Of a DNA stretch of 23,372 bases, positions 1 to 23,372 are shown piece by piece; positions within the stretch are counted from its first letter, which is position 1; every line of letters begins with the position of its first letter. The stretch is from a virus. Location of the stretch: the IMG/VR virus record IMGVR_UViG_3300032331_000324, positions 1-23,372 of that record. One strand, written 5' to 3'. The notes beneath the pieces were generated by a model that was not told the origin of the DNA, ran no database searches, and saw nothing but the letters and a program-made list of their open reading frames with translations. A program made the translations under genes and the position numbers.

Positions 1-276
1 CATCATTGCAATACCATCGGGTATGTTTGTTGCTTCTTGTAGGTCTGCCAGTTCAAGCATACGAGCAAGTGAACCTGGTGCATAAGAATTTAATGCACGA
101 AGATGTTCAGCAATATCATCGGTTTGAGCGAACACAGAAGTGTAAAAGGAATCTAAGAAAGAATGATATTGTGGGAAATTTGGTCCCTCAATGTTCCAAT
201 GGTATCCATGTGCCTTCAGGTATAAAGCAAAGTTTGTACCTAGAATTGTTTTGAGTTGAGAGATAAGAGTTTCCAT
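1..276 (-). CDS. dps: Dps-like ferritin (DNA protection during starvation), 3' part outside window
   Basis: Ninety-two N-terminal residues are visible and the frame is open at position 1. Dps proteins are dodecameric mini-ferritins that oxidise and store Fe(II) with peroxide; many also bind DNA. The helix A/B signature is plain: LKAHGYHWNIEGPNF at residues 20-34, then QYHSFLDSFY and QTDDIAEHLRAL. All five ferroxidase ligands known from E. coli Dps (H51, H63, D67, D78, E82) match here as H26, H38, D42, D53 and E57 with identical spacing (12, 4, 11, 4). The start is chosen from the TAATG overlap with the gp16 stop, which implies translational coupling. The N-terminal tail before helix A is short, without the lysine-rich DNA-binding extension of E. 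coli Dps, so iron or peroxide handling is easier to support than DNA binding. In T4 the next gene would be the large terminase gp17, so this is an insertion in the packaging operon. Family call very likely; role in infection unknown. Confidence 0.92.
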   Translation of the reverse strand, partial: METLISQLKTILGTNFALYLKAHGYHWNIEGPNFPQYHSFLDSFYTSVFAQTDDIAEHLRALNSYAPGSLARMLELADLQEATNIPDGIAMM

Positions 277-680
277 TACATTTCCTGTTTTTGAGTTTTA
301 AGCAGTTTTACTAATTCTGCGGTATTACCAACAAACACAGCTTTATCTATGTTTAGATTGTTGGATTCAGATTTGGGTGCCAAATCTTTTTTACGTTTTT
401 GTATTTCCAGTAAGTCTTTATTTAAGTCACCTAGATTTTTCATCAGGGTGGCTAAGACTTCATATGCTCTTGGATGTTGACCATCACGGGCAACGAGCAT
501 TAATTCATTCATGGCATGACTGCCTTGTGTTACCAGTTCACGAATGTTGTTTCGTGCAAAATCAGCATCAGCATTGATTGGATCAGAAGCTTCTATAATA
601 ACTGGTAGAGGTGTTGGTTTTTCTTCTCTGATGGGTTCAACATCAAATATATCAGAGAGATTCGCGTTTAATTTTTTCAT
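276..680 (-). CDS. gp16: Small terminase subunit, T4 gp16-like
   Basis: 134 residues, somewhat shorter than T4 gp16 (about 164). Small terminases form rings that recognise genomic DNA and regulate the large terminase motor during packaging. Support comes from position directly after gp15 and from the layout: an acidic and proline-containing N-terminus (residues 1-40), a helical core with AYEVLATLMKNLGDLNKDLL around residues 73-92, and a lysine-rich segment after it (QKRKKDLAPK), resembling the central coiled-coil core of T4-type small terminases. The ATG overlaps the gp15 TGA as ATGA, and the TAA overlaps the Dps start as TAATG, so gp15, gp16 and Dps look translationally coupled. The sequence is less distinctive than gp13-15, so the call leans partly on synteny. 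Confidence 0.85.
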   Translation of the reverse strand: MKKLNANLSDIFDVEPIREEKPTPLPVIIEASDPINADADFARNNIRELVTQGSHAMNELMLVARDGQHPRAYEVLATLMKNLGDLNKDLLEIQKRKKDLAPKSESNNLNIDKAVFVGNTAELVKLLKTQKQEM

Positions 681-1678
681 GATAAAGTATTTGGATACTC
701 CTTTATTGTATCTATAAATCCGAATTCATCACCCAATGAAGCAGTTCCAGGATCAGTTTGTGTTTTTATCTGTACAACATTTAGAGAATTGATATCTGTC
801 ACAACAACATTGTATGCGGCACCAGTATAATCGCCAGTAAGTTTGTCACCCACTTTGATAATCTTATTGGCACCAGTTACTATTAATATTCCACTTGAGG
901 TATTGCTGAAGAAGTCTACAGTGGCAAATAAATCAGAGTTATTTGCACGAAGAGTCTCGCCTTGTGCAAAGACACCATTACCATTAGCATAGTCAACATA
1001 AACCTTTTGTATATCTTTGGTAGTAAGATCAATAAATGTATTAGTATTGGCAGTTTTAATATACTTACCAGATTTAACTGGTGGCCATATGTAACCTTTG
1101 GCAGTAAATGTCAAGTCCCATAGAATTAATCGCGTGGAACCTTCATTTAATGCGCCCTCATACTCTACAGTTGATGCTACTGAATCTAATATAATAGGAA
1201 CATTATATTTTTGATCCATCTCAGGAATGAAGTCTACGGTAACATTAAAGTCTGGTGTAAAAAATGGTAAAATTTGTTCGAGAATCTGTGTTCCATCTTC
1301 GGTATTACGAACATAGATCGATAGTGAGAATTGAAAGTTGTATGGTATAGGAACGAACTGCGTGTTTACTGAAGTGTCATCGTTCTGTGCAAAGTTACGA
1401 AGTGTTGAAACTTGTTTACGATTAATATCATATTCCAGACTGTCAAGGTTGAACGACATACGTGGAACAACAGTAGCAATTGACTTGATCAAATTAGGAT
1501 CAGAAGTGATTGCTGTTAGAAATCTTTCTTTCGGTGAAAAAGACAATGGCACTTTCCATTTTTCTTTTGGAACACCTGCTTGGGTGTATCGTACAATCTC
1601 AATATCATTGAAGAGTGTACCAAATACAACTACCATCTTGCGAATGGTGCGATGATAGAACTGAGCATTACCTAACAT
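677..1678 (-). CDS. gp15: Tail sheath stabiliser / tail completion protein, T4 gp15-like
   Basis: 333 residues against 272 in T4. gp15 forms the hexameric terminator ring at the head-proximal end of the contractile tail and binds gp14 in the neck. The N-terminus FYHRTIRKMVVVFGTLFNDI (residues 7-26) matches the family pattern (T4: FYNSSFRRYATLMGDLFSNI). A central block with YELSIF/ILEQILPFF-type sequence is present as FSLSIYVRN (residues 116-124) and ILEQILPFFTPDFNVTV, followed by the family 'LTF.. G..(Y/W)PPV' segment (LTFTAKGYIWPPV). The extra length is C-terminal (after about residue 210), a beta-rich tail not in T4. The start overlaps the gp14 stop as TAATG. Confidence 0.93.
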   Translation of the reverse strand: MLGNAQFYHRTIRKMVVVFGTLFNDIEIVRYTQAGVPKEKWKVPLSFSPKERFLTAITSDPNLIKSIATVVPRMSFNLDSLEYDINRKQVSTLRNFAQNDDTSVNTQFVPIPYNFQFSLSIYVRNTEDGTQILEQILPFFTPDFNVTVDFIPEMDQKYNVPIILDSVASTVEYEGALNEGSTRLILWDLTFTAKGYIWPPVKSGKYIKTANTNTFIDLTTKDIQKVYVDYANGNGVFAQGETLRANNSDLFATVDFFSNTSSGILIVTGANKIIKVGDKLTGDYTGAAYNVVVTDINSLNVVQIKTQTDPGTASLGDEFGFIDTIKEYPNTLS

Positions 1679-2571
1679 TACGGTTCCCCAAACGGATTGT
1701 GTTCCGTAAAGTCGATGATGCCATCAGATGATGCTTCGATACGAGCATTGTCAAAAATGTCCTCAAATGCATTGTTCATAGTAGCAGCATCAGAAATAAC
1801 ATTAATTGTTCTACTTGTGCTGGTACTTGTATTACCTTTTAATAAACCTGTAGTAAAATCACCTTGAACACGATATACTTCTACATACTGTCCTGGCATA
1901 TAATCATGAACAAGTGCTTGTGCATTTGCTGTCGCTAAACTACTTCCTTGATATACAATCTCATCATTTAAATAACTACCTGTGCCGCCAGAAGAAAAGA
2001 ACAGTCTTGTTTTCGGATAGTAATCTACGATCTGTTCATCAATTAACTTTACACCAGTATCAATAATCTCATTAGAAAATACATACTGCTTCATCTTCAG
2101 AGCATACACATATACATTACCACCTCGACCACGACCTAATGTATAGAACATCGTCTGTTGATCTTCATGTTCAACAAAAGTAATCTCAAAAAAGTTATTA
2201 AGTAATGGTACAAATATTAAATCACCTTCACGTGGACGAGTGTATCCATTTACTGTATAACGGAATCGTAATCGTGACACCAACATCGTAACTTCATCAC
2301 GAATCTCAAGACCAAATTTGGAAATAAAATCTTGCTCACCATCCATACCTGAAACATTTTCCAGATACATTTCAATTGGATGAGCAGAACGGTATTCTTT
2401 AAGAGAGTCTTCACCAAATAGATAGTCTACTTGGTCGCGTGTGGTACGTGGCATGTAATAAACATCCATGCCGTAAATTTTCATTGCCTCAATAACCAAG
2501 TCCTCAACGAGCAGTTGCTCGGAGGTTATCTGGTTCGCAGGAAAGTTATTGAAGTAGAAGTTGGTAGGAAT
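1678..2571 (-). CDS. gp14: Neck protein, T4 gp14-like, apparently starting at ATT
   Basis: gp14 assembles with gp13 on the portal to close the filled head and form the neck. Family features are clear: EDLVIEAMKIYGMDVYYMPR near the N-terminus, FGEDSL, FISKFGLEIRDEVTMLVS, the REGDLIFVPL motif and FEITFVE. The first ordinary start codon is TTG at 2499, but homologous sequence continues upstream in frame (MPTNFYFNNFPANQITSEQL), matching the N-terminus of T4-like gp14 proteins such as those of cyanophages. The frame upstream closes at the gp13 TAG (2583-2581), and between that TAG and the homology there is no ATG, GTG or TTG. ATT at 2571 is therefore proposed, with an AGG 8 bases upstream. This gives 297 residues (T4: 256). 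Alternatives are a TTG start (273 residues, losing conserved sequence), readthrough of the gp13 TAG, or a sequencing error. Confidence 0.9.
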   Translation of the reverse strand: MPTNFYFNNFPANQITSEQLLVEDLVIEAMKIYGMDVYYMPRTTRDQVDYLFGEDSLKEYRSAHPIEMYLENVSGMDGEQDFISKFGLEIRDEVTMLVSRLRFRYTVNGYTRPREGDLIFVPLLNNFFEITFVEHEDQQTMFYTLGRGRGGNVYVYALKMKQYVFSNEIIDTGVKLIDEQIVDYYPKTRLFFSSGGTGSYLNDEIVYQGSSLATANAQALVHDYMPGQYVEVYRVQGDFTTGLLKGNTSTSTSRTINVISDAATMNNAFEDIFDNARIEASSDGIIDFTEHNPFGEP

Positions 2572-2580
2572 TTTATTTAC

Positions 2581-3534
2581 CTATCCTGTCAGAATTTCAG
2601 ATGGCAACGAACCCATCATGTACATTTCTTCTTCCATCTTTTCAATCTCTTGTATTGCTTCATCATAAATTTGTTGACCATTTAAGGTGACACCACCTGG
2701 CATTTGTATACCCGCAAACTTTTTAAGATTAGAACCCCACTGACGTTTAATCAATGCGGTGGCATATTTCTTTAGGAACCTATCATTCCACACATCAGTA
2801 ACACCTTCAAGTGTAGCGGTTGCATTTGTATAAGTCTGTGCGGGATTACCCTCTAACTCTAAAGACGTAGGACTTGAAATTTTTCTTACTTGCTTTTGTT
2901 CAGTGCCGATTGTAATAAAATCAAAATCAACAAGTTCTTGATCAAACTTTGTACCTGTACCAATAACTGTATTAGAACCTGGAGCACATGATAGAGTTCC
3001 TGTTAGTGTAATTGTTTCGGGTTCTAATGCACGATAGCATTCGATGATAACAAAGTTACCTGGTTGAACATCGCGTGTCCAATCGATGTCTAAAAATACT
3101 TTGTTCTGATGACGGTTGAATCTGAACTGTGGAGTACCAGAGAATAATAGATTCAATGTACGAAGGTGTTGCATTGTAATTTCATATGACACATATGATA
3201 CCGATGTAAAGTCATAAAGATCATGCAGACGTAATTGATAACGCAAGTCAAACATATTGATTGATGCATTAGATAAATCAAATGGCATAACACCAATAAC
3301 AAATTGCACAGCATCAGGACAGTAAATCCACTGCCGATTAATATCTTCAGCAGTGATAGCATGTTTCATAAACAATTTTTCCGTGCCATCGTAATGATAA
3401 TCACGCCAGAAAGAAAGTGCCTCATCAATACGGTCATCTACCTGATCATCATCGACGTTGATTTCGATGACAGGAAAACCTAACTTGCGTAAGCAATAGG
3501 TTTTGAATTGTGATTTGGTTGATATTTTTGCCAT
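2581..3534 (-). CDS. gp13: Neck / head-completion protein, T4 gp13-like
   Basis: 317 residues, close to T4 gp13 (309). With gp14 it stabilises the packaged head and forms the tail-docking platform. Diagnostic stretches are the N-terminal FKTYCLRKLGFPVIEINVDD (residues 10-29), typical of T4-like gp13, followed by DRIDEALSFWRDYHYDGTEK, and the C-terminal WGSNLKKFAGIQMPGGVTLN with GQQIYDEAIQEIEKMEEEM. A beta-rich insert containing LTGTLSCAPGSNTVIGTGTK and an ATLEGVTDVWND segment lies between. It ends with the only TAG among the 20 stop codons seen in this window, in the same frame as gp14. No good Shine-Dalgarno precedes the ATG; instead an AT-rich leader (ATAAATAAGCAATC) runs directly into it. 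Confidence 0.94.
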   Translation of the reverse strand: MAKISTKSQFKTYCLRKLGFPVIEINVDDDQVDDRIDEALSFWRDYHYDGTEKLFMKHAITAEDINRQWIYCPDAVQFVIGVMPFDLSNASINMFDLRYQLRLHDLYDFTSVSYVSYEITMQHLRTLNLLFSGTPQFRFNRHQNKVFLDIDWTRDVQPGNFVIIECYRALEPETITLTGTLSCAPGSNTVIGTGTKFDQELVDFDFITIGTEQKQVRKISSPTSLELEGNPAQTYTNATATLEGVTDVWNDRFLKKYATALIKRQWGSNLKKFAGIQMPGGVTLNGQQIYDEAIQEIEKMEEEMYMMGSLPSEILTG

Positions 3535-3909: not shown

Positions 3910-4281
3910 TTATTGAAAGTCATGTTCGTCCCACGACAAGGTTGATTCATTCCAAATATAATTCTTATCTTCTGATGTTGGCATAGGCGTAGGTGGTTCC
4001 CAACCGCAAATATCCTCGTTCAATGTCCATGAAGGAAATGGTTTAGGTGGAATAAATGCATCACGGGAACTATCGTATGTAAAACCAACAGCGGCATAAT
4101 TTTTACGAAACTTTTTATTATAAGAAGTTTGTTTCCATGTTTCATGACCTGTTATTTTTTGTAAAAACTGTACGCCAATTTCTTCTCTTTCTTCTCCTTG
4201 TGGAGTCATGGTATCAACATTATTAACAACTAATACTCCTATTACAATATTATCAATACCAATTTTTGCAAAATGTGCCAT
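3910..4281 (-). CDS. MAHFA-family phage protein, copy 1, fibre-associated, function unknown
   Basis: 123 residues starting at MAHFAKIGIDN. The start is chosen because the Shine-Dalgarno AAAGGA lies just upstream and because the paralogue at 22156-22536 starts with the same MAHFA. An ATG-less extension to 4347 is rejected. The two copies align over their full length with a shared pattern: G/EREE.GV.F.Q, then WKQTSYN, YA..G..Y....DAF.PPKPF.SWTLN, then W..P..MP and Y.WNE...W. Small proteins with this aromatic pattern are familiar beside tail fibres in marine T4-like phages, but no biochemical role is known to me. It directly follows a glycine-rich fibre gene, as copy 2 also does, suggesting a partner role such as fibre chaperone, cap or adhesin. 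No catalytic motif is seen. Confidence 0.82.
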   Translation of the reverse strand: MAHFAKIGIDNIVIGVLVVNNVDTMTPQGEEREEIGVQFLQKITGHETWKQTSYNKKFRKNYAAVGFTYDSSRDAFIPPKPFPSWTLNEDICGWEPPTPMPTSEDKNYIWNESTLSWDEHDFQ

Positions 4282-4297
4282 TATTTTTTTCCTTTCA

Positions 4298-5668
4298 TCA
4301 TGATGTAAACGATCCTGAACCAGTGAAAGTGTGTACGGTATAACCACCTGCTGAAGTTATAGTTCCACCAAATGCTCGTTGATTTCCAAGATAACGAACA
4401 ATTACGATTCCAGAACCTCCAGCAAAATTTGATGCCCAATTTGTATATGGTCCTTGTCCACCAGAACCACCACCACCGCCGCCAGTATTCGTAGCACCAG
4501 GAGTTGGAGGATTTGAGTTTGTACTCCAACTACCATTACCGCCACCACCTGCCCCACCAGGAGCAGCCGCACCACCTGGCCAAGTACCACCGCCACCTCC
4601 GCCAGCATAATACGTTGGTGTTCCAGTTATCGATGACAGAAAACCTATACCACCAGTACCACCCGTACTTGCATTTGGTGCTGCTTGTCCTACTGCACCT
4701 GCACCACCACCGCCACCGCCAGCATGACTATCAGTTCCGTTACCACCCGCATAACCTTGACCAGGAGTTCCAAGTGCTCCAATATTCCACGGGGAAGTTG
4801 AGCCACTACCACCAGCACCAGAACCACCAGTCGCTGGCAAGGTGTATGCAAAACTTCCACCACGACCACCACCAATGGCAGTAAGACTGAAAGCGGTGGA
4901 GTTATCACCATTAGCACCAACGTTTGGATTAGGATTGCTACCACCACTACCACCACCACCAACTCCTATTGGATAATTTGTGCCAGAAGATAAACTTAAA
5001 CCTGAACCAGAAAGCACTCCTCCTGCACCGCCTCCACCACCATGCCAGTTTGATCCAGCACCACCTCCCGCAACAATTAAATAATCAATATTATAATTGT
5101 CTCCAAGAATATTTTGCCATCCACCTGCTGGTAAATAACCTTCAAATCTACTTAAAGTAGTATTGAATCTTAGTGAACCGTTTGCTGCAAATGCTGGTCG
5201 TTGTGCAGTTGTGCCTTGAGGTAACACAAATAAACCAGTTGATGTAGTATTAGCATTGTATACGCTAGTAACTCCACCAGAACTCTGTACAGTGAAACGT
5301 TGATTTGTAAGTCTGTTTGCTGTGAATCCGCTAGTTAAAAAGAAATCTTCAAAGGCATTTGGTTCTGCTAACTTTGCATTTGTAATTGAACCTGTTACAA
5401 TATTATTTGAGTTGACAGAACTATCTACCAACTTATCTCCTGTAATAGCATTTGGTGCTATCAGATTACCTGTAATTGTTCCTGCGACAATGTTATTACC
5501 ACGAATAGCATTGACTGTAATATTGTTTCCAGATATAGCACCAAGAGCAATAAGATTACCCGTAATAGAACCGACAGTAAGATTATTTGAACTGATTGCT
5601 CCGGTACCAATCTTGTTACTGGTAACTACGCCATCTATAAGTAAGTTTGAACGGACTCTTTGTATCAT
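4298..5668 (-). CDS. Tail-fibre protein: decapeptide-repeat N-terminus plus one glycine-rich module
   Basis: 456 residues. Residues 20-102 are perfect 10-residue repeats (GAISSNNLTV, GSITGNLIAL, GAISGNNITV...), probably a beta-helical or fibrous shaft. EPNAFEDFF (102-110) is followed by NRLTNQRFTV, a linker with YNANTTSTGLFVLPQG, and LRFNTTLSRFEGYLPAGGWQ. Residues about 193-425 form a glycine-rich module opening with YLIVAGGGAG, containing GTPGQG (300-305) and TNTGGGGGGSG, and closing with GGSGIVIV. Such modules are known in phage fibres; Salmonella phage S16 gp38 uses a polyglycine-II fold at the fibre tip for receptor binding, so host recognition is a reasonable inference. The C-terminus (residues 432-456, ending YTVHTFTGSGSFTS) looks like the opening strand of another module cut short. 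The start follows the previous TAA directly. Confidence 0.82.
   Translation of the reverse strand: MIQRVRSNLLIDGVVTSNKIGTGAISSNNLTVGSITGNLIALGAISGNNITVNAIRGNNIVAGTITGNLIAPNAITGDKLVDSSVNSNNIVTGSITNAKLAEPNAFEDFFLTSGFTANRLTNQRFTVQSSGGVTSVYNANTTSTGLFVLPQGTTAQRPAFAANGSLRFNTTLSRFEGYLPAGGWQNILGDNYNIDYLIVAGGGAGSNWHGGGGGAGGVLSGSGLSLSSGTNYPIGVGGGGSGGSNPNPNVGANGDNSTAFSLTAIGGGRGGSFAYTLPATGGSGAGGSGSTSPWNIGALGTPGQGYAGGNGTDSHAGGGGGGAGAVGQAAPNASTGGTGGIGFLSSITGTPTYYAGGGGGGTWPGGAAAPGGAGGGGNGSWSTNSNPPTPGATNTGGGGGGSGGQGPYTNWASNFAGGSGIVIVRYLGNQRAFGGTITSAGGYTVHTFTGSGSFTS
5363..5611 (-). repeat. Decapeptide (30-bp) repeats in the 456-residue fibre
   Basis: About eight consecutive 10-residue units with consensus roughly (A/G)-(A/S)-I-(T/S)-G-N-(N/L)-I-x-x. 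The same unit type builds the 76-residue proteins at 5669-5899 and 9200-9430 and appears briefly at the N-terminus of the 146-residue protein (ITGNRVANNSITYDNL). Regular Ile spacing suggests stacked beta-strands. Confidence 0.8.
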
Positions 5669-5921: not shown

Positions 5922-8900
5922 TTATGTCCATGTTAGGATCACAATTCCAGAACCACCCGCACCTGCTTGTCCAGTGGTATTGTTGTTTCTTCTTGCTCCA
6001 CCACCACCACCGCCTGTATTTGTAGTACCAGCAACAGCATCACTATCTCCTGGACCACCATTACCGCCACCACCATTACCACCAGGTCCTATACCTGAAG
6101 TAGCACTACCACCACCGCCACCAGCATAAAATGTTGGTGTTCCAGAATATGATGATGATAAACCTACCCCACCTGTTCCACCAGCACTCGGAGTTCCATT
6201 ACCACCAACAGCACCAGCACCGCCGCCGCCGCCAGTAGCAACGTTAGGAGATGAGAGATTTCCACCAGCATTTCCTTGTCCTGGAGTTCCTGTACCCGCT
6301 GGACCAGGACCGTTACCTGCACCGCCGCCGGAGCCACCATTACCAACACTAGAACCAGTACCTCCAAAACCGCCACCTATAGCAGTAAATGATGAGAATG
6401 ATGAATTTGCACCGTTTGATCCAATACCAGTATAAGGTGGTCCAGGAGTGCCCACACCAGCAGCACCACCTGCGCCAACTGTAACTGTGTATGCTTGTCC
6501 CGGTGTTACTGGATGACTTGTTCCTGTTAAAAGTCCACCTGCACCGCCACCGCCACCGCCACTACTGGTACCTGCTCCACCTCCCGCAACAACAAGATAA
6601 TTAACTGTAGCAGATTGTGCAGTGAATGTACCTGATGCATAGAATGTTGCTATTTTTGGTTGTGTTGCTGAGTGTTTGAGTATGAGTATGCCTGAACCAC
6701 CAGCACCACCAATACTTGTTCCTGCACCACCACCGCCGCCAGTTCCAAGTGCACCCGCACCACCAGTAGGTGTACCAGGATTTACGGCAGTACCACCACC
6801 ACCGCCAAGACCACCAGCAGTTGTTCCACCAGTGCCAGAAGCACCACCACCGCCAGCAAGATACAATAAAGTTCCTGTGAGTGTAGTTGATAGTCCAGCA
6901 CCACCTGAACCACTAACAACTGGCGAATTACCAGTACCACCCACAGCACCAGCACCACCACCGCCACCATTAAAGTTACCTACTCCTGGTGTGCTTATTG
7001 CACCACCACCTTGATTACCTTGACCAGGTGTTCCTAAACCTCCAGCATATGGACCACCACCACTTGATGCTCCTGCACCACCGCCAGAACCACCAACACC
7101 ACCACCGATGTTTCCCCCACTAGAACCACCACCACCTCCAAATGTTGATAGTGAAGAGAATATAGAATTTGAACCATTTGAAGCAACTCCAGCAGGTGCT
7201 CCTGTTCCACCTGAACCTATGATAATAGGATATGTTTGTCCTGGTGCTACTGGATAACCTGTGCCCGATATGTAACCACCAGCACCACCACCTCCCGCTA
7301 CACTTCCGCCACCGCCACCAGCAACGAGAACATAATCAACCGCAGTAATTCCTGGTGGTGCTGTCCATTGCCCTGATGCTGTGTAAAGATATGTTGTGAC
7401 TGAAGGTTGTGTCGTGGGGATCGAAACGATGACAATACCTGAACCACCTGCACCAACTGCACCACCAGAACCAGCAGCACCACCACCACCACCGCCAGTA
7501 TTTGTATTTGCCGAACCAGCAGCAACAGTACGTGTTGGTCCAGGAGTTTCTATGTATGAACCACCATTACCACCACCATATGGTGTTCCTAACCAAGGTG
7601 AACCTGAACCATATGAAGCATAACCTCCACCACCATATCCCATTGAACGATCAACTTGTGGTATAAGTCCACCACCTCCACCACCGCCAGCATATGCTAC
7701 ATTAGCACCAGACATTGATGAGAAGATTCCTATACCGCCATTGCCGCTTCCTGCACTAATTGATCCTACGCCAGCACCACCCGCACCTCCACCACCCGCA
7801 CCTCTTGCTAAAGATGGATTTGCTGTAGAAGAACCTGTGCCGCCAGCAAAACCTTGTCCTGGAGTTCCTGCACCTCCAGAATTACCTGCTGGTGTGCTTG
7901 ACCATCCACCTGCACCACCACCAGAACCACCAGATCGACCCGAAGTTGCTGCTGCTCCCGAAGGTGCGCCATCTCCACCGCCGCCACCACCAGTAGCAAC
8001 TAATGTGCCGAAAACTGAATTTGAACCATTGGAACCTGCTGTAATTCCGGGAGAATAAGGGGAACCTGGACCGCCAGCACCACCAGAACCAATCGCAACA
8101 GCAATTGCGGAATTTGAACCAACTGGAAATCCTGTTCCTAATAAGACACCACCAGCACCACCACCTCCACCTATATTACCGCCGCCGCCGCCACCGCCAG
8201 CAACGACAAGATAATCTACTTGTGAAACACCTGTGGGTACAATAAATTGACCTGTATTACCAAAAACAAAAATACCATTTGTTGATGTGGATTGTGTCCA
8301 CTTGAGAACGATGACACCTGAACCACCAGCACCACTAATTCCTGCTGCGCCGCTTGGACCAGTTACTCCGGAACCCCCACCGCCTGAACCAGTTGAAAAA
8401 ACACCGTTACCAGCAGCAGTTGCAGTAGTACCTGAAGCATTACCTCCAATTAAAAATCCTCCAATACCGCCAATATTTCCACCACTACTACCTCCTCCAC
8501 CACCAGCAGCGTATGCGGTGTTTGATCCTGAAATGGTGGAAAATATTCCTATACCACCATTACCACCTATAGCAGAATTAGCATTTCCACCAATTGCTCC
8601 AGCACCACCACCACCACCGCCTCTAGCATTATATGCGCCAGTTAATTGACCAGTGCCACCACTAAAACCTTGTCCGGGTGTTCCTGTACCAGCAGAACCT
8701 CCATAACAAGCACCTCCACCGGAACCACCAGGACTACCATTTTGTCCCGGATTATTTTCAGTACCACCACCACCGCCACCTATTGACCAATTAACTAATG
8801 ATGTTCCTGTACTTGTGTTGAATATACCCGAATTTGAGCCAGTAACACCATTCGCAGGAGAACCTGTTGGTCCTCCATTTCCAGCACCAGCACCACCTGA

Positions 8901-9200
8901 ACCAACAGCAAGTGTATATGATGTACCCGGAGTTACTGTTAATCCTGTTCCTGTTTGATAACCACCCGCACCGCCACCGCCACCATAACGATCACCACCG
9001 CCGCCGCCACCGCCAACAACTAACCAATCAACTGATGTAACTCCAGAAGGAGGTGTCCATGTTTGTGAACCTTGAAATACTTGAATTGAAGTATAAGATG
9101 TTGGTCCAGCAGGTGCGGGTGTCGAACCACCAGTGCCAAAACCAGGTACAGTGAATCGCTGTGTTGTAAATCTATTGACTGTGAATCTTTTTAGACTCAT
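5922..9200 (-). CDS. Large glycine-rich tail-fibre protein with four tandem modules
   Basis: 1092 residues, dominated by Gly, Ser, Ala, Thr and Asn. The N-terminus SLKRFTVNRFTTQRFTVPGF carries an RFTV repeat shared with the 456-residue fibre. Four glycine-rich modules follow at about residues 35-302, 308-594, 601-842 and 850-1092. Each opens with an aromatic strand plus VDYLVVAGGGGG-type sequence, has an internal GTPGQG (173-178, 445-450, 723-728, 971-976), a 'YAGGGGGG' segment, and closes with GGSGIVIL. Runs of Gly separated this way suit polyglycine-II packing as in phage S16 gp38, so a receptor-binding fibre tip is a reasonable inference. The start overlaps the previous stop as TAATG, so translation is probably coupled to the 76-residue repeat protein. 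Long proline-rich frames on the opposite strand are composition shadows. Confidence 0.85.
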   Translation of the reverse strand: MSLKRFTVNRFTTQRFTVPGFGTGGSTPAPAGPTSYTSIQVFQGSQTWTPPSGVTSVDWLVVGGGGGGGDRYGGGGGAGGYQTGTGLTVTPGTSYTLAVGSGGAGAGNGGPTGSPANGVTGSNSGIFNTSTGTSLVNWSIGGGGGGTENNPGQNGSPGGSGGGACYGGSAGTGTPGQGFSGGTGQLTGAYNARGGGGGGAGAIGGNANSAIGGNGGIGIFSTISGSNTAYAAGGGGGSSGGNIGGIGGFLIGGNASGTTATAAGNGVFSTGSGGGGSGVTGPSGAAGISGAGGSGVIVLKWTQSTSTNGIFVFGNTGQFIVPTGVSQVDYLVVAGGGGGGGNIGGGGGAGGVLLGTGFPVGSNSAIAVAIGSGGAGGPGSPYSPGITAGSNGSNSVFGTLVATGGGGGGDGAPSGAAATSGRSGGSGGGAGGWSSTPAGNSGGAGTPGQGFAGGTGSSTANPSLARGAGGGGAGGAGVGSISAGSGNGGIGIFSSMSGANVAYAGGGGGGGLIPQVDRSMGYGGGGYASYGSGSPWLGTPYGGGNGGSYIETPGPTRTVAAGSANTNTGGGGGGAAGSGGAVGAGGSGIVIVSIPTTQPSVTTYLYTASGQWTAPPGITAVDYVLVAGGGGGSVAGGGGAGGYISGTGYPVAPGQTYPIIIGSGGTGAPAGVASNGSNSIFSSLSTFGGGGGSSGGNIGGGVGGSGGGAGASSGGGPYAGGLGTPGQGNQGGGAISTPGVGNFNGGGGGAGAVGGTGNSPVVSGSGGAGLSTTLTGTLLYLAGGGGASGTGGTTAGGLGGGGGTAVNPGTPTGGAGALGTGGGGGAGTSIGGAGGSGILILKHSATQPKIATFYASGTFTAQSATVNYLVVAGGGAGTSSGGGGGGAGGLLTGTSHPVTPGQAYTVTVGAGGAAGVGTPGPPYTGIGSNGANSSFSSFTAIGGGFGGTGSSVGNGGSGGGAGNGPGPAGTGTPGQGNAGGNLSSPNVATGGGGGAGAVGGNGTPSAGGTGGVGLSSSYSGTPTFYAGGGGGSATSGIGPGGNGGGGNGGPGDSDAVAGTTNTGGGGGGARRNNNTTGQAGAGGSGIVILTWT

Positions 9201-22155: not shown

Positions 22156-22536
22156 TTACGCTGAAGGTAATTGCCAATCTTGTGCTTCTTCGTTCCAATA
22201 GTAATGCTTAATTGGATCGCCTGTACCTTGATCTGAAGGCATTGCTTTTGGTGCATCCCATGATGCTGTTTCACTGTTCAGTGTCCACGAAGCAAAAGGT
22301 TTTGGTGGAACAAACGCATCAAGATCGGCATTGTATGAATAGCCGATACCAGCATATCGTACACGCATACCATGATTGTATGATGTTTGTTTCCAGTTGC
22401 CGCCAAACAGTCGTTGGCAAAACGCTACGCCAAGTTCTTCACGTTCTTGACCATTTGCGTCAAGTAGTTCGTTGTTACTTACAACAATTACTTGAGTAAC
22501 AACGTTATTTTCATCAAGTTGTGCAAAATGTGCCAT
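22156..22536 (-). CDS. MAHFA-family phage protein, copy 2, fibre-associated, function unknown
   Basis: 126 residues, full-length paralogue of the protein at 3910-4281. Shared landmarks are MAHFA at the start, GQEREELGVAFCQ, WKQTSYN, YAGIGYSYNADLDAFVPPKP followed by FASWTLN, then W..P.AMPS and YYWNEEAQDW. The main differences are a five-residue insertion near the C-terminus (GTGDPIKHYYW) and one Cys (position 40). The ATG has TAGGAG upstream. It forms its own small transcription unit: promoter-like box at 22568-22576 and hairpin terminator at 22111-22138. Like copy 1 it lies immediately downstream of a glycine-rich fibre gene. Possible roles are fibre-assembly chaperone or a bound tip protein; neither is shown. 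Confidence 0.83.
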   Translation of the reverse strand: MAHFAQLDENNVVTQVIVVSNNELLDANGQEREELGVAFCQRLFGGNWKQTSYNHGMRVRYAGIGYSYNADLDAFVPPKPFASWTLNSETASWDAPKAMPSDQGTGDPIKHYYWNEEAQDWQLPSA

Positions 22537-22583: not shown

Positions 22584-23372
22584 TTATGTCCATTTAAGGA
22601 TGACAATTCCTGAACCACCATCACCACCACCAGTAGCCCAAACTGCACCAGGTCCGCTTGGGAATACTGCAAGAGCACCACCTCCACCACCACCGCCTGT
22701 TGCTGGTAAACCAGGAAGCCCGTTTAGTCCACCAATTGCTGCCTCTGGAGTGATTGAAGGATTAGAACTTCCACCATTACCACCACCACCTTTTTGTGCT
22801 GGATTTGTAGTACCACCACCTAATGCTATAGTGTAATTGCCAGTTCTAAAATCATTAGCACCAGCACCACCGCCAGCATAATATACTGTTGAACCACTTA
22901 TTGTTGATGCTAATGCTATGCCTCCATTACCACCTTGTCCGTTAGGTGCTGGAGCATTACCACCTGCGCCACCTGCGCCACCGCCACCGCCAGAATTATT
23001 TTGACCACCACCAGGTCCAGTTTCATAATAACCACCACCACCCTGATTACCTTGACCCGGTGTTCCTGGAGCACCAGCAGAAAGATTACCAAATGGACCT
23101 TGATTAGCACTACCACCACCAGAACCACCTCTCCATCCTAAATTAAGCGGTGCTGGACTGCCACCACCACCACCACCACCACCAAGTGCAGTTATAGTTG
23201 CAAATACTGAGTTGGTTCCATTACTACCATGACCTGTGGGAGACACTCCTGCTTTTCCTCCTGCACCCACAATAATTGAAATTGTTTGTGCGGGTGTTAC
23301 GCCATATCCTGTGCCTGTTAAGAATCCACCAGCACCACCACCGCCACCTCCAATAGTGTTTGGACCGTATAC
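22584..23372 (-). CDS. Glycine-rich tail-fibre protein, 3' part (5' end outside window)
   Basis: The frame is open to the window edge, giving about 262 visible residues. The first visible residues (TIGGGGGGAGGFLTGTGYGV followed by TPAQTISIIVGAGG) are the start of a glycine-rich module of the same type as in the 1092- and 456-residue fibres; an internal GTG at 23270 is not the start. The module contains GTPGQGNQGGG, a 'YYAGGGAG' segment and closes with GGSGIVILKWT then TAA, almost identical to the ends of the first and last modules of the 1092-residue fibre. It is followed by a MAHFA protein, as is the 456-residue fibre. Likely receptor-binding fibre; number of upstream modules unknown. Confidence 0.83.
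   Translation of the reverse strand, partial: VYGPNTIGGGGGGAGGFLTGTGYGVTPAQTISIIVGAGGKAGVSPTGHGSNGTNSVFATITALGGGGGGGGSPAPLNLGWRGGSGGGSANQGPFGNLSAGAPGTPGQGNQGGGGYYETGPGGGQNNSGGGGGAGGAGGNAPAPNGQGGNGGIALASTISGSTVYYAGGGAGANDFRTGNYTIALGGGTTNPAQKGGGGNGGSSNPSITPEAAIGGLNGLPGLPATGGGGGGGALAVFPSGPGAVWATGGGDGGSGIVILKWT

Follow-up and report, generated by a model that had tools for sequence, protein, structure and literature searches.

Why should a virus hold a gene for a Dps mini-ferritin among the genes that package its DNA? The question is raised by the left end of IMG/VR record IMGVR_UViG_3300032331_000324, a 23.4-kb viral record that was analysed over its whole stretch of 23,372 nucleotides (the window). 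A sequence-only reading had recognised there the N-terminal part of a Dps directly behind the small terminase gene, and regarded it as inserted into the packaging operon.

Gene order at the locus

On the minus strand of the window the genes run gp13-like, gp14-like, gp15, gp16 and then the first 92 codons of Dps, where the left end of the record truncates the gene:

1..276, minus strand: first 92 of the 144 codons of a Dps mini-ferritin (the record stops within the gene; remainder from the contigs L002 and L003)
274..278, minus strand: TAATG, in which the gp16 stop and the Dps start overlap by one base (from the sequence)
286..281, minus strand: AGGAAA, candidate ribosome-binding site upstream of Dps (read by eye)
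276..680, minus strand: gp16, small terminase subunit, 134 aa (PF11053, 36 bits; phrog_445, 3.5e-31)
677..1678, minus strand: gp15, tail sheath stabiliser (PF16724, 221.8 bits)
1678..2499, minus strand: gp14-like neck protein (PF11649, 95.6 bits; phrog_460); start taken from the ORF finder and possibly not the true one
2581..3534, minus strand: gp13-like head-tail adaptor (phrog_211, 143.3 bits)

The TAATG by which the Dps start had been said to overlap the end of gp16 is indeed found at 278..274, and the spacing is tight; the gp16 in question is a T4-type small terminase (PF11053, phrog_445). Exact T4 late-promoter octamers (TATAAATA / CTATAAAT) are absent from the coding strand of the window and of L002, so that the late timing of Dps expression is something we infer, as is its stoichiometry.

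The rest of the window holds a phrog_7759 protein twice (3910-4347 and 22156-22536), at either side of a large tail-fibre-like block, as well as long proteins rich in glycine that carry PF21722 domains (5922-9200, with four such stretches, and 22584-23372). Between 14938 and 21488 lie two long proteins with many short 'ANAAF/ANSAF'-like repeats, for which Pfam gave no match above cut-off. A cyanophage identity was considered and set aside, the photosystem family PF00124 being found in 0 of the 17 records searched, many of which are fragments.

A complete gene with a Dps fold

Two near-identical contigs, L002 and L003, each carry a complete Dps gene of 144 codons, which in L002 lies at 2396-2830. 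Ahead of the gene, L003 agrees with the window across 5,216 bases without any mismatch, and L002 across 2,395 bases with three mismatches; in the 276 Dps bases L002 has none. The C-terminal half that had been supposed to lie beyond the window is thus intact in both contigs, and gp17, which had been expected to follow, does so in L002 (2834-4465, 543 aa), beginning 3 bases past the Dps stop; L003 ends ahead of gp17. The GC content is 0.39-0.40 for Dps, 0.36 for gp16 and 0.40 for gp17. The defects that had been named as able to undo the reading are not found. A stop or frameshift just beyond the edge is ruled out by the full 144-aa frame in L002 and L003, and a chimeric join of phage and bacterial DNA by the collinear matches of these two contigs, by gp17 in L002, and by the recurrence of the gp16-Dps junction in 153 distinct sequences. 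Within the reach of these data, the gene is neither chimeric nor broken.

The assignment to the Dps family likewise stands, being backed by several comparisons. The 92-aa open frame (276..1, minus strand) scores 47.7 bits against Pfam Ferritin (PF00210; cut-off 24.5), matches phrog_3636, a phage 'DNA binding protein' family, at 2.5e-20 (74.1 bits), and matches solved Dps chains at 2.1e-16 at best; three NCBIfam Dps models give this partial query 32.9-39.8 bits, below their cut-offs of 114-300. An AlphaFold2 monomer of the L002 protein, predicted from a 30-sequence alignment, has a pLDDT of 96.3 and a pTM of 0.91, and the model shows a full-length four-helix Dps bundle with the short BC helix. 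Foldseek against the PDB returns 193 matches to this model at E<=0.001, and the best 50 of the 193 are all Dps-type chains, a few of them labelled HP-NAP, TpF1 or 'putative bacterioferritin'; when the model is compared by VIA-align over 144 residues, 2c41 and 2chp both reach Z 23.6.

Prevalence of the arrangement

Five viral scans were made, the best 80 matches of each being classified in full; the sets overlap, and the loci they contain are nearest relatives rather than a random sample of T4-like viruses. Among loci selected by Dps, both gp16 and gp17 lie within 60 bases of it in 74 of 80, and in the other six gp16 or gp17 is visible, the departure going with a contig end, an insertion or a partner frame that was misread. 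Among loci selected by gp16, Dps stands directly after gp16 in 72 of 80, 67 of them with gp17 close behind, whilst gp16 is directly followed by gp17 in five (L109, L121, L127, L139, L148) and the contig ends after gp16 in three, which are uninformative. The Dps is therefore no oddity inserted into an operon, as it had first seemed, but the rule among the nearest relatives fetched, and the five loci without it indicate that it is dispensable in some lineages. Alignment-selected loci give a similar picture, with both flanks close in 73 of 80 and one flank or an insert in seven.

In a divergent sub-branch both flanks are close in 55 of 80 loci, gp16 and/or gp17 present in 21 more, and neither in four (L385, L386, L389, L332). 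No gp16 was found in the 4,000 bases upstream of the L332 Dps, and that contig ends 27 bases past Dps. In 14 of the 80 sub-branch loci Dps adjoins gp17 but not gp16; seven of these were inspected, and in all seven gp16 lies upstream, the interval being either short or taken up by tail-fibre-like genes or by one that resembles HNH (by eye).

With all scans pooled, there are 209 distinct Dps gene sequences at loci with gp16 and/or gp17. The length of Dps, looked at in a smaller set, is 144-145 aa in 77 of 79. Spacing is narrow at both sides of the place between gp16 and gp17 (hereafter the slot): among 153 distinct gp16-Dps junctions from the Dps-, gp16- and alignment-selected loci the gap is -1 to +13 bases in 142, with TAATG itself in 35, and the Dps-gp17 gap is between -4 and +15 bases in 141 of 145. 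Seventeen chosen records were searched whole, 13 with Dps and four of the five without; each of the former holds one ferritin-type gene and the latter none.

Some of these loci carry further genes of note. Glycine-rich tail-tip-like genes (by eye) are seen inside the gp16-Dps-gp17 region of L036 (2544-3425) and in the slot of L324, L330 and L388. The gp17 gene is in two pieces in L102 (4889-5647), L101, L107, L184, L219 and L452, and in L102 the stretch between the pieces encodes a GIY-YIG-like protein (by eye), pointing to a homing endonuclease or an intron.

The iron site

The iron ligands of the window Dps (H26, H38, D42, D53 and E57) are spaced 12/4/11/4, as in E. coli, and align with H51, H63, D67, D78 and E82 of what we take to be the E. 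coli Dps sequence. The residue numbers of the latter agree with those in PMC9140674. The complete five-ligand ferroxidase set previously claimed thus holds for the window protein, and does not extend to its family: while H26, H38, D53 and E57 are invariant in all 176 distinct slot proteins, as in 60 other viral and 73 bacterial proteins, position 42 is acidic in 36/176 slot, 20/60 other viral and 71/73 bacterial proteins. The slot proteins mostly have Gly (83) or Asn (45) there. Part of the invariance is imposed, because the search for the loci of the Dps-, alignment-, genome-, sub-branch- and second-lineage scans used short motifs, and a number of these contain ligand residues. Loci selected by gp16 are free of this bias, and in these the same four ligands occur in 43 of 43 distinct proteins and an acidic position 42 in 6 of 43.

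An acid at position 39 (E. coli 64) occurs in 100 of the 176 slot proteins; only one protein has acids at both 39 and 42, and 41 have neither. A tree of 236 viral Dps, from which columns 39 and 42 were omitted, has 22 changes of acid 42, and in eight supported independent pairs acid 39 tends to go opposite to it (on average 5.7 pairs opposite and 0.1 the same). This apparent exclusion of one acid by the other is statistically modest, with a median sign-test p of 0.03 (range 0.016-0.375) and, when the traits are reversed, a median p of 0.06.

What the two positions do is known from other Dps proteins. According to PMC6675082, the acid at position 67 of canonical centres binds the site-B iron via water, and NpDps4, which has Asn at 67 along with other differences, used O2 and showed no sign of using H2O2. 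In E. coli the nucleation centre consists of residues 64 and 67, as PMC6150300 has it. The window Dps, then, has the canonical ligand set, but site B is altered in the majority of its relatives, for which a different oxidant preference is a prediction.

Comparison with known Dps proteins

With bacterial Dps (PF00210; among them Pseudomonas PA0962, 8ff9, B. subtilis MrgA, 2chp, and T. elongatus Dps, 2c41) the viral family shares the full-length fold (Z ~23, rmsd 0.9-1.1 A) and the ligands H26, H38, D53 and E57, the window protein D42 as well. It differs from them in its mostly non-acidic position 42 and in having no N-terminal tail. The start Met of the window Dps aligns with E. coli K26, and the N-terminal extension of the 176 slot proteins has a median of 0 and a maximum of 19, against a median of 12 in bacterial relatives; lengths were taken from the longest open frames, that is, from the first possible start, which makes the bacterial 12 an upper bound. 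The Lys/Arg-rich N-terminal tail of E. coli-type DNA-binding Dps is thus absent from the window protein and from the slot proteins (n=176, median extension 0), so that DNA binding in the E. coli style seems unlikely. The tail is not universal among bacterial Dps either. Identity to E. coli Dps, again in the sequence we take to be its own, is ~19-23% over aligned columns for most viral members.

The loss of acid 67 in most viral relatives recalls the cyanobacterial His-type Dps (NpDps4 and TeDpsA, PMC6675082), of which NpDps4 has Asn at this place. Unlike these, however, the viral family keeps Asp at 78 (D53, in 176/176 at the position of NpDps4 His78), and its position 138, which lies near NpDps4 His164 (numbering offset by a gap or two), is M in 173/176 and never His. 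With D53 and M138 kept, the family is not of His type, and such an assignment was ruled out.

Isolates, prior reports and a second viral lineage

In the phage collection searched, 478 records match gp16 and 38 match full-length Dps at E<=1e-5. By organism name (one of the 478 is nameless) the two sets share only S-SRM01, with two records, and in that phage gp16 and Dps are ~63 kb apart and other genes follow gp16. In five isolates inspected over 4-6 kb at each side of Dps, no annotated terminase adjoins it; its neighbours include porin, sulfate adenylyltransferase or anaerobic RNR genes, and in BS162P1 they are all 'hypothetical'. Dps as such is no novelty in phages. It is reported in print from Lactobacillus phages (PMC6669764) and from gut phages, including Gratiaviridae (PMC8008677), and ferritin is named among the ROS-defence genes of freshwater phages (PMC6802176). 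The slot Dps resembles these and others (phrog_3636, Synechococcus phage S-SRM01, Aeromonas LAh_8, Streptomyces Kenrey) in being phage-encoded, with iron/ROS control proposed in print, but differs in its place, since none of the Dps genes in the five isolates inspected lies beside an annotated terminase. An account of a Dps between gp16 and gp17, or of the altered iron site, was not found in the literature covered, most subscription papers lying outside it.

The slot itself is open to other genes. In the Kyanoviridae isolates S-H38 and Mosig the gp16-gp17 gap is filled by other genes, which cautions against over-reading the place of Dps. In T4 itself no gene is known to separate gp16 from gp17.

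A second lineage of viral Dps came to light with L233, whose Dps is 47% identical and lies on a 132-kb contig (CAIWHI010000271.1) filed in a Bacteroidetes MAG. A gene near it matches a phage 'head and packaging' family, and phage structural genes are nearby; the match suggests that L233 is viral, probably phage DNA that ended up in a bacterial bin. The lineage found with L233 (loci L391-L469 plus L233, Dps near 4001-4435) has Dps outside the terminase slot in 76 of 80 loci and inside it in four. In 21 of the 80 a nearby protein belongs to a cluster whose representative matches phrog_1645, a 'virion structural protein' (head and packaging); in 59 no such neighbour is seen within the stretch fetched. 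Other loci of this lineage have DNA polymerase or fibre-like genes near Dps. In BFVD, three entries named 'Prohead protease' of uncultured phage (A0A6J7XDU5, A0A6J7WPK9, A0A6J7WIS1) match the Dps model over ~140 columns; going by names and matches alone, they are possible Dps-protease fusions.

Evolution of the gene

In a 73-row Dps tree, a quick one in which 37 of 70 inner branches are open, the 36 viral slot rows together with L233 and L242 stand apart from the rest as a group of 38 (support 98). A recent gain from a sequenced bacterium finds no support, as identity among the matches listed (80 of 240 genome matches) is at most 42%, L233 excepted. The gp17 tree has 44 rows, obtained by thinning 126 distinct long sequences at 90% identity and adding 2 isolates. 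It shows two deep clades with Dps in both, and the presence of Dps on it needs four changes; a single gain and three losses would fit, provided that the root lies with the isolates.

The median dN/dS, calculated by our own script from pairs with dS of 0.1-1.5 among 98 complete triplets, comes to 0.185 for Dps, against 0.265 for gp16 and 0.049 for gp17, and Dps is under purifying selection. Dps distances correlate with those of gp16 at r=0.42 and with those of gp17 at r=0.24, which makes exchange among these genomes likely, and the occurrence of similar Dps proteins on both sides of the deep gp17 split is a hint that genes have been exchanged at the slot. The phage Dps that begins in the window is, in sum, real, complete in L002 and L003, and under selection; its place is strikingly fixed and the iron site of its family altered.

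Function of the slot Dps

What could such a protein do there? We think it rather probable that this is a true viral Dps held between the terminase genes and probably co-expressed with them, which would assemble as a dodecamer, take up, oxidise and store Fe(II) late in infection, and so spare the phage DNA from Fenton chemistry. Where the gene sits, and how closely it is spaced, speaks for expression together with the packaging genes, and the invariant ligands speak for real metal chemistry. The dodecamer would absorb Fe(II) late in infection, oxidise it and store it as mineral; Fenton chemistry would thereby be kept off the replicated phage DNA, and the cell would stay productive until the end of packaging. 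The slot would serve to couple Dps production to packaging, and contact with the terminase would not be required. Late iron and peroxide control is thus the most likely role of the slot Dps. Several observations weigh against this account: the most variable ligand position sits in iron site B, and peroxide chemistry could be affected; Dps is missing from five of the 80 loci selected by gp16; the late-promoter octamers looked for in the window and L002 are absent; and the place of Dps may reflect a permissive site, since the gp16-gp17 gap takes other genes.

The last of these bears on the view of Dps as a general stress or fitness gene, protecting the host from reactive oxygen and unrelated to packaging, that sits in a permissive slot. 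Tail-fibre-like and HNH-like (by eye) genes do enter the slot in relatives, as other genes do in S-H38 and Mosig, Dps distances follow those of gp17 weakly (r=0.24), and a ROS-defence role has been proposed for freshwater phages in PMC6802176. Nevertheless, nearly every related locus fetched has Dps in this place, both deep gp17 clades are represented, and there is little or no spacing at either side; we find this view rather unlikely.

Carriage of the Dps cage by the virion, in the head or elsewhere on the particle, where it would deliver iron or iron-binding capacity or shield the packaged DNA, strikes us as improbable. A ~9 nm dodecamer would be bulky cargo, terminase proteins are not known to be part of the finished virion, and 59 of the 80 second-lineage loci show no phrog_1645-type neighbour within the stretch fetched. 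What speaks for carriage is the slot's position beside neck and packaging genes, together with the phrog_1645-cluster protein near Dps in the other 21 loci and the Dps-like region of the BFVD 'Prohead protease' entries, hints that are circumstantial. The Ferrojan horse hypothesis of virion-borne iron shares with our case the link between phages and iron, but nothing at this locus shows virion carriage.

A further view has the Dps fold taken over for a structural or regulatory role alongside the terminase, with metal chemistry of secondary importance. It would suit the conserved synteny with gp16 and gp17 and the fact that most members have lost the usual site-B acid, yet it is highly improbable given four metal ligands invariant in 176/176 that a mere scaffold would not need.

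To return to iron control, a bolder form of it can be put together. Site B would have been rebuilt in the viral Dps branch, the carboxylate at E. coli 67 being repeatedly lost or moved by one helical turn to 64 (39 here), with almost never both; the gene would be a standing member of the packaging operon of T4-like viruses; and the protein, tuned to another oxidant or rate, would be made while naked concatemers are packaged and possibly be borne by the particle. We doubt that all of these hold jointly.

Ferritins of phages are as a rule catalogued as auxiliary genes that turn up here and there. The one described here keeps its position as a structural gene would, within the packaging operon that a group of uncultured T4-like viruses share, and its iron site shows a specific, repeated change. 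This suggests that control of iron late in infection is important to these viruses. The locus makes two things testable: the management of iron by lytic phages at the packaging stage, and a different oxidant preference in a mini-ferritin without the site-B acid.
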